NCBI GenBank assembly: GCA_937995535.1
Contig: CALKJU010000020.1
Coordinates: 124,001-188,000 of the forward strand
Direction: 5' to 3'
DNA from: an uncultured Alphaproteobacteria bacterium
Lineage (GTDB): Bacteria > Pseudomonadota > Alphaproteobacteria > Geminicoccales > Geminicoccaceae
DNA: 64,000 nt
Shown here: positions 35,543-37,553 of the stretch, one piece after another
Numbering within the stretch: position 1 is the first letter of the stretch
Layout of the letters: each line of letters opens with the position of its first letter
The notes under the pieces: model-generated
What the model was told of the DNA's origin: nothing
The model's input: the letters and a program-made list of their open reading frames with translations, nothing else
Databases searched by the model: none
Made by a program: the position numbers and the translations under genes

Positions 35543-35974
35543 ATGGTGGACGCGGTGGCGCTGGCCTGCGATCACGCCGGTGTCGCGCTCAAGCAGGAGC
35601 TGCGGGCCGTTCTGGAGCGCGCCGGACGGATCGTGCTCGACCTCGGCACGGACGGCCCCGAGTCGGTCGATTACCCGGACTTCGCCGACCGCATGGCGGA
35701 GGCGCTGGCCGACGGTCGCGCCAGTCGTGGCGTGCTGCTCTGCGGCTCCGGGATCGGCATCAGCATCGCCGCCAACCGCCATCGCCATGTCCGCGCGGCG
35801 CTCTGTCACGACGCCACCACCGCGCGGCTCGCGCGCGAGCACAACGACGCCAACGTCCTGGTCCTCGGCTCGCGGGTCGTCGGCGTGCAGACCGCGCTCG
35901 ACTGTCTCGAGGTGTTCCTCGCTACGCCGTTCGCCGGCGGGCGGCACGCGCGGCGCCTCAGCAAGCTCGGCTGA
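35543..35974 (+). CDS. rpiB: Ribose-5-phosphate isomerase B
   Basis: A 143-residue RpiB/LacAB isomerase interconverting ribose-5-phosphate and ribulose-5-phosphate. It contains [10 protein letters not shown] near the N-terminus and the active-site [18 protein letters not shown], with the catalytic cysteine; GAREH..ANVL follows. A GGAGGT site precedes the ATG by six bases. The stop overlaps nrdR (TGATG). In many alphaproteobacteria glyA sits between them; here it is absent. Confidence 0.95.
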
Positions 35975-36441
35975 TGCGCTGTCCGTTCTGCGGAGCGGAG
36001 GACACGCAGGTCAAGGATTCGCGCCCGGTCGAGGACGCGGCGGTGATCCGCCGGCGTCGGCAATGCGCAGTGTGCGGCGCTCGCTTCACGACCTTCGAGC
36101 GCGTCCAGCTCCGCGAGCTGGCGGTGGTCAAGAAGGACGGGCGCCGCGTTCCGTTCGAGCGCGACAAGCTCGCCCGCTCGATCCGCATCGCGACGCGCAA
36201 GCGCGGCATCAGCGAGGAGCAGATCGAGCGGATCGTCAACGGCATCGTCCGGCAGATCGAGACCAGCGGGGAAAGCGACATTCCCTCGACGCGGCTGGGC
36301 GAGCTGGCAATGGCCAGCCTCGCCGAGCTCGACGAGGTGGCCTATGTCCGCTTCGCCTCGGTCTACCGGGACTTCGCCGACGCGCGCGACTTCGAGGAGT
36401 TCATCCGCCGCCTGCCGAACGGTGAGGACGGCTCAGGCTAG
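35974..36441 (+). CDS. nrdR: Transcriptional repressor NrdR
   Basis: A 155-residue repressor of ribonucleotide reductase genes that senses ATP and dATP. The zinc ribbon cysteines are C3, C6, C31 and C34 (MRCPFC, QCAVCG), and the ATP-cone domain covers about 49-139 ([19 protein letters not shown]). Length is standard. The ATG is coupled to the rpiB stop (TGATG), and the 3' end overlaps the converging flavin-binding gene by four bases. Confidence 0.96.
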
Positions 36442-37094: not shown

Positions 37095-37219
37095 GGCCGG
37101 CGGCTCCGATGGTCAGCCGCCAGCCTCACGCTCCCGTGGTCGCCGCACCAGGGCCAATCGGGCAAATGGAAGGAGCCACGGACGATCCGTGGCTGATCGC
37201 CGCAGCGTGATCGGTGTCA

Positions 37220-37248
37220 TTGGTCCGTCAACCGCTCCTGCCTACCCT
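37220..37248 (+). promoter_or_regulatory. Weak promoter candidate ahead of the DHp gene
   Basis: TTGGTC (37220-37225), 17 bases, TACCCT (37243-37248), the latter running into a CCCT-GT-AGGG inverted repeat at 37245-37254. Match quality is low; the repeat would suit a repressor site. Confidence 0.25.
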
Positions 37249-37316
37249 GTAGGGCAAGGCGTGTGACCACGGCGCAGGTTCGGGCCGCCTGCCGCAATGG
37301 AAGCTGGAGGACCTGG

Positions 37317-37553
37317 ATGTCGCTTGCGCCCCTGGCGCGGCCGCCCGGCCGTTTGCCGATGGCCTACGAGGCGCTCGAACACGAGCTGCGGACGCCTTTG
37401 GCGTCGCTGCGCTCGCTGGCCGAGATCCTCCGTGACCACCCGGAGCTGTCCGAGGCCGAGCGGCGGCGCTTCCTCGACGCGATGATCGGCGAGACGCAGC
37501 GGCTGCAAGGGACGCTGGACGCGATCCTCGAGTGGGCCGAGGAGCGGGCCTGA
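37317..37553 (+). CDS. Orphan histidine-kinase DHp (HisKA) domain
   Basis: A 78-residue protein that is little more than a dimerisation/phosphoacceptor domain. The H box is EHELRTPLASLRSLAEIL with phosphoacceptor-like H22 at residues 21-38, followed by a second helix (about 47-74) that could complete the helical hairpin. There is no ATPase (HATPase) domain, sensor, or response regulator nearby. The ATG at 37317 has GGAGG six bases ahead (37306-37310), so translation from there is likely. It could accept phosphate from another kinase, as in phosphorelay proteins such as ChpT, or titrate a kinase by forming mixed dimers. A degraded kinase remnant is the alternative, but the good ribosome site speaks against it. 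Confidence 0.7.
   Translation: MSLAPLARPPGRLPMAYEALEHELRTPLASLRSLAEILRDHPELSEAERRRFLDAMIGETQRLQGTLDAILEWAEERA

Follow-up and report, generated by a model that had tools for sequence, protein, structure and literature searches.

DHp domains, the phosphoacceptor domains of histidine kinases, dimerise through a helical hairpin. In the dimeric histidine phosphotransferase Spo0B, a hairpin DHp with its phosphoacceptor histidine is joined to a C-terminal domain. Domain A of EnvZ, reportedly presented as an isolated DHp construct by Zhu in 2000, is the same hairpin as a laboratory fragment. The SLC5/STAC kinases (CbrA, CrbS, RpuS) are transceptors of about 900 amino acids with CA domains. ChpT is a dimeric helical-hairpin DHp with a phosphoacceptor histidine and no autokinase activity, and keeps a C-terminal Bergerat-like domain (PMC3433190). 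In Sphingomonas melonis, the kinase-derived, histidine-bearing PhyT is membrane-anchored, is thought to have originated as its catalytic domain degenerated, and is fed by the single-domain receiver SdrG in a relay from Pak to SdrG to PhyT to PhyR (PMC5898713). The DHp piece of HK853, a laboratory fragment with the same hairpin, has been assayed alone as a phosphatase on phospho-RR468 (PMC5727384).

We analysed a DNA window of 64,000 nucleotides from an uncultured alphaproteobacterium, in which a TGA-terminated open reading frame encodes a HisKA hairpin as a natural gene product. The protein shares the hairpin and histidine with ChpT and Spo0B, and with PhyT an apparent descent from a kinase, the histidine and an alphaproteobacterial host, but it has neither the C-terminal domains of these proteins nor the membrane part of PhyT. 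Most likely it works like all three, yet it is no structural member of their class because a C-terminal CA-like domain is absent. Its DHp is closest in sequence to those of the SLC5/STAC kinases, whose transceptor and CA parts it lacks. No description of a natural DHp-only family was found in the literature searched, which was mostly without subscription papers and makes this a weak negative. The gene and the elements preceding it are as follows:

37317..37553, forward strand: gene of the DHp-only protein (P0001), 78 amino acids, phosphoacceptor H22 in EHELRTPL; HisKA at 5.3e-12, 11/31 family genomes, two-helix model
37306..37310, forward strand: GGAGG ribosome-binding site, spacer of 6 to the ATG; read directly
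37220..37248, forward strand: weak promoter candidate TTGGTC-N17-TACCCT; a guess from its pattern, the consensus scan having returned no promoter-like site upstream of the gene

An earlier note on this sequence had rightly named the H box HELRTPLASL with H22, which sits in EHELRTPLASL, and a GGAGG six bases ahead of the ATG at 37317, where we read the spacer as ACCTGG. Starting instead at an in-frame GTG (37263) would lengthen the protein to 96 residues; we prefer the ATG because of the Shine-Dalgarno sequence ahead of it. The GC contents of the three codon positions (0.77, 0.49 and 0.92) resemble those of neighbouring genes.

Pfam assigns HisKA to residues 20-74 (46.1 bits against a cut-off of 26.9), names no other phosphotransferase family and, at E values up to 1, detects neither HATPase nor a sensor or receiver domain, bearing out what the earlier note had read from the letters. 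Only four residues follow the HisKA match, leaving no room for a CA-like C-terminal domain. AlphaFold, supplied with an 11-member alignment, models two helices (residues 14-40 and 46-77; mean pLDDT 85.1, pTM 0.68), the latter being the second helix already claimed. The model matches HK853 with a Z score of 9.7 (rmsd 3.2, 72 residues aligned), but an unrelated hairpin of PhiC31 integrase reaches 8.5. Because the fold matches, headed by HK853, do not stand far above those to unrelated hairpins, the DHp assignment rests on sequence; the sequence profile of the family matches HK853 at 1.8e-8. The protein is thereby confirmed as a HisKA (PF00512) DHp hairpin alone, and it is not a histidine kinase, the CA/HATPase domain being absent from it. 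Its own genome has 15 HisKA domains above the Pfam cut-off; the frames that hold 14 of them span 385 amino acids or more, and only this one sits in a frame of 118. All 21 HATPase matches are likewise in frames of 385 amino acids or longer.

The earlier note had argued against a dead fragment and had suggested looking in relatives for stand-alone conservation, or for an intact kinase at the same locus. In an initial protein search of 60 relatives, short open frames scored above all kinases. A profile (A1) built from the window protein and ten relatives, the start codons of several of which we picked among ATG, GTG and TTG, was then run on 31 genomes of the family. It returned a DHp-only frame in 11 of them, from 5 of 16 genera (96.9-117.3 bits; the next best match, a full kinase, scored 80.7). 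Within genus g6, codon comparison finds the gene under purifying selection (pN/pS 0.18-0.37, uncorrected, over the 53-codon DHp; six genomes, 15 pairs); between genera, where pairs are nearer saturation, pN/pS rises to 1.0. In 9/10 relatives the gene and ymdB converge, their stop codons -47 to 27 bases apart, and an ATPase domain therefore cannot follow. None of the ten relatives read has a kinase at this locus. Among 26 ymdB loci, nine carry the DHp gene, 16 no remnant of it and one (G026) a match at E 0.046. The common locus is a housekeeping one (ymdB, 5-FCL-like, zapA-like and gap/pgk-like genes), and the neighbours are ymdB, GGT or an rRNA-methyltransferase-like gene; no signalling gene was seen adjoining the DHp-only gene in the carriers read or in the window. 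These names were given by eye, except YmdB and GGT, which are from Pfam, and the relatives' genes were called by a GC-based script that missed or misframed some short genes, including the DHp gene of L037 and L040. In its own genome and in G012 the gene is placed elsewhere, and ymdB has other neighbours; the window has a divergent PNPOx-type gene upstream and a convergent DUF427 gene downstream (Pfam), the latter ending 13 bases beyond the DHp-only gene. The comparisons with relatives thus side with the earlier note and indicate not a broken kinase but a real gene that selection maintains in several related genera.

Two candidate explanations were rejected along the way. A frame-shifted kinase was ruled out by the convergent next gene, the end of which is only a few bases away in nine relatives and 13 bases away in the window. 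A dead fragment was ruled out by the purifying selection, the family homologues and the ymdB-linked locus. That annotated genomes contain many HisKA fragments is familiar, and is what speaks for a decayed piece of kinase without function; against it stand eleven genomes, a single clade, selection and the same locus in nine, and we regard it as very improbable.

The A1 profile and a pattern for the H box supplied 73 DHp sequences, whose tree (FastTree, 54 sites) unites the 11 DHp-only proteins in one clade with a support of 0.991, and on this phylogeny the genes have a single origin. Glutamate precedes the histidine (H-1) in 11/11 of them and in 0/62 kinase DHps, which have Ser, Thr or Ala there in every case. 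Eleven residues are invariant (E21, H22, E23, T26, P27, L28, E36, R49, R62, L63 and L71). They contain HExxTP, that is H, E(H+1), T(H+4) and P(H+5), with the phosphoacceptor histidine and the HisKA phosphatase motif (E/D at H+1, T/N at H+4). Position H+12, in the receiver-facing helix, is I or L in all 11 proteins, whereas 45/47 STAC-like DHps have F there, a difference that could point to another partner for the DHp-only protein; near the C-terminal end of helix 2, positions H+47 and H+51 also differ from the kinases. Carriers are scattered on the tree of YmdB, kinase and receiver, and the gene has therefore been lost several times or moved. One non-carrier within a carrier genus, G011, also lacks ymdB and may simply be an incomplete genome.

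Wider searches added no member, either in the class (385 genomes, 29 of them with matches at 1e-15; 14 candidates scored in each genome) or in the phylum (398 genomes, 34 of them with matches). The EHELRTP pattern occurs in 5/385 class genomes, as three DHp-only genes and, by chance, two LysR-like regulators, and a contig scan yielded nothing but long kinase frames, at three loci. The family thus appears from these searches to be natural, conserved and of limited range. The sole other short frame (L132:5549-6037, reverse strand, in G213, from another family of the class) encodes a 163-residue protein with HisKA at 8.1e-9 and the H box GGLRAPL, without the histidine and without HATPase; besides itself, it matches only the local STAC-type kinase in two genomes. 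In the window's own genome, an 83-residue frame (L169:1407-1658, forward strand, G000:C115), which follows a gene judged by eye to be IMP-dehydrogenase-like, gives a sub-threshold HisKA match of 19.1 bits (cut-off 26.9) and also lacks the histidine.

Following the earlier suggestion to look for kinases with the most similar DHp helices, we found the closest in the same genome to be a CbrA-like SLC5/STAC kinase (52.8%; 28/54 positions, against 21/54 for the next kinase). It lies outside the window at G000:C20 and matches the CbrA structure 10ED at 1.7e-69; Pfam left the transporter part unnamed, and the SLC5/STAC label rests on this match. HK853 was rewired by changes at five DHp sites (positions taken from the title of 4jau); among these, the DHp-only protein agrees with this kinase at four and with the other 13 kinases at 0-2, an agreement that may partly come from common descent. 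CbrA acts on a DNA-binding regulator, CbrB, whereas the CbrA-like kinase here is preceded by a 123-aa single-domain REC, whose frame, 139 aa from stop to stop, is the shortest of the genome's 28 receiver frames. A receiver match adjoins the STAC kinase in 19/21 loci read and is absent in L143 and L146; one of the 19, in G014, has an open frame of 588 aa, long enough that the receiver may not be single-domain. In several relatives, for example L141, about 2.3 kb separate the single-domain receiver from the STAC kinase, and the gap in L141 holds a second HisKA-bearing frame of 871 aa. All 11 carriers have the STAC kinase, but so do about 26/31 genomes (chance roughly 0.09, by hand), and genomes that lack the DHp-only gene can have kinase and REC too; the co-occurrence is therefore weak.

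Our main reading, to which we give a probability of about one half, is that the DHp-only protein is a dedicated kinase-derived phosphotransferase/phosphatase, without sensor and CA domain and directed at a receiver, most plausibly the STAC-linked REC. The DHp hairpin of a kinase would have lost its sensor and CA (ATPase) domain and been kept as a separate soluble protein, two copies of which would form the usual DHp four-helix bundle and dock a receiver domain as a kinase DHp does. H22 could then take phosphate from the Asp~P of one receiver and pass it to another; alternatively, or in addition, T26 could help water to remove the phosphate. Judged from its conserved residues, the protein probably transfers or removes phosphate on a receiver protein. 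In HisKA kinases, an acidic H+1 residue is needed for kinase activity and T/N at H+4 for phosphatase activity (PMC3510030). Since the isolated HK853 DHp served as a phosphatase in the source cited above, a hairpin alone can act on receivers. A pure phosphatase would leave unexplained the invariant Glu at H+1, which serves, by the cited account, kinase and not phosphatase activity. Because H, E, T and P of the motif are invariant throughout the family, the most likely function is still of the class that the earlier note had described, a phosphorelay intermediate like ChpT but smaller. The likeliest receiver would be the single-domain REC beside the CbrA-like kinase, the apparent source of this type of DHp. 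An output-less receiver needs a further partner, as in the Pak-SdrG-PhyT-PhyR relay so far as it is described, and we therefore propose that phosphate may run from the kinase to the REC, on to the DHp-only protein, as from SdrG to PhyT, and then to a further regulator, or that the protein may act as a drain on that REC. Against this relay, no partner is encoded adjacent to the DHp-only gene, whose window neighbours are of PNPOx and DUF427 type. More tentatively, the DHp of an SLC5/STAC transceptor kinase may have split off once, gained the EHE sequence and come to tap the transceptor's single-domain receiver in a branched phosphorelay.

It is also conceivable, though we consider it unlikely, that the protein forms a heterodimer with the DHp of a kinase, the STAC one or another, and either blocks that kinase or is phosphorylated in trans by its CA domain as one half of a split kinase. 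DHp hairpins dimerise, and the nearest relative is a STAC kinase DHp. Separate phosphoacceptor and ATPase proteins are known in CheA3/CheA4 (PMC3591291). A split kinase is also reported for Mycobacterium (HK1/HK2/TcrA). The Glu at H+1, which only kinase activity requires (PMC3510030), is invariant and speaks for this reading too. On the other side, no gene with a CA domain alone was seen beside the DHp-only gene, the genome's HATPase matches are all in long frames, and H+47 and H+51 in helix 2 are unlike those of kinases. The dominant-negative partner raised in the earlier note is less favoured because a pure blocker would not need the conserved HExxTP residues. A similar objection meets the idea that the protein binds a receiver away from its kinase without phosphate chemistry: PhyT also sequesters PhyR (PMC5898713), and the L132 and L169 proteins illustrate that His-less DHp-like proteins exist, but both fall outside the 11-protein set, which keeps HExxTP throughout, and such a sponge appears improbable, more so than a dimer partner.

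Known kinase-derived phosphotransferases keep a second domain, and a DHp of 77-92 residues that occurs in nature and is under selection would demonstrate that a hairpin by itself can be a signalling protein. It would offer a minimal system for the choice of a DHp between phosphotransfer and phosphatase activity, and may explain the partner of the output-less receiver beside the SLC5/STAC kinase. If true, the DHp-only branch turns a nutrient-transport kinase into a branched phosphorelay.

Among the 11 stretches upstream of DHp-only genes (up to 200 bases each), an EcfG-like site was found in none and a sigma-70-like pattern in one. A possible operator lies at window positions 37174-37194, where a perfect inverted repeat of 9 bp, AGCCACGGA-TCG-TCCGTGGCT, stands between the DHp gene and the divergent PNPOx-type gene. 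Further upstream, rpiB and an nrdR-like gene overlap in TGATG (35972-35975).
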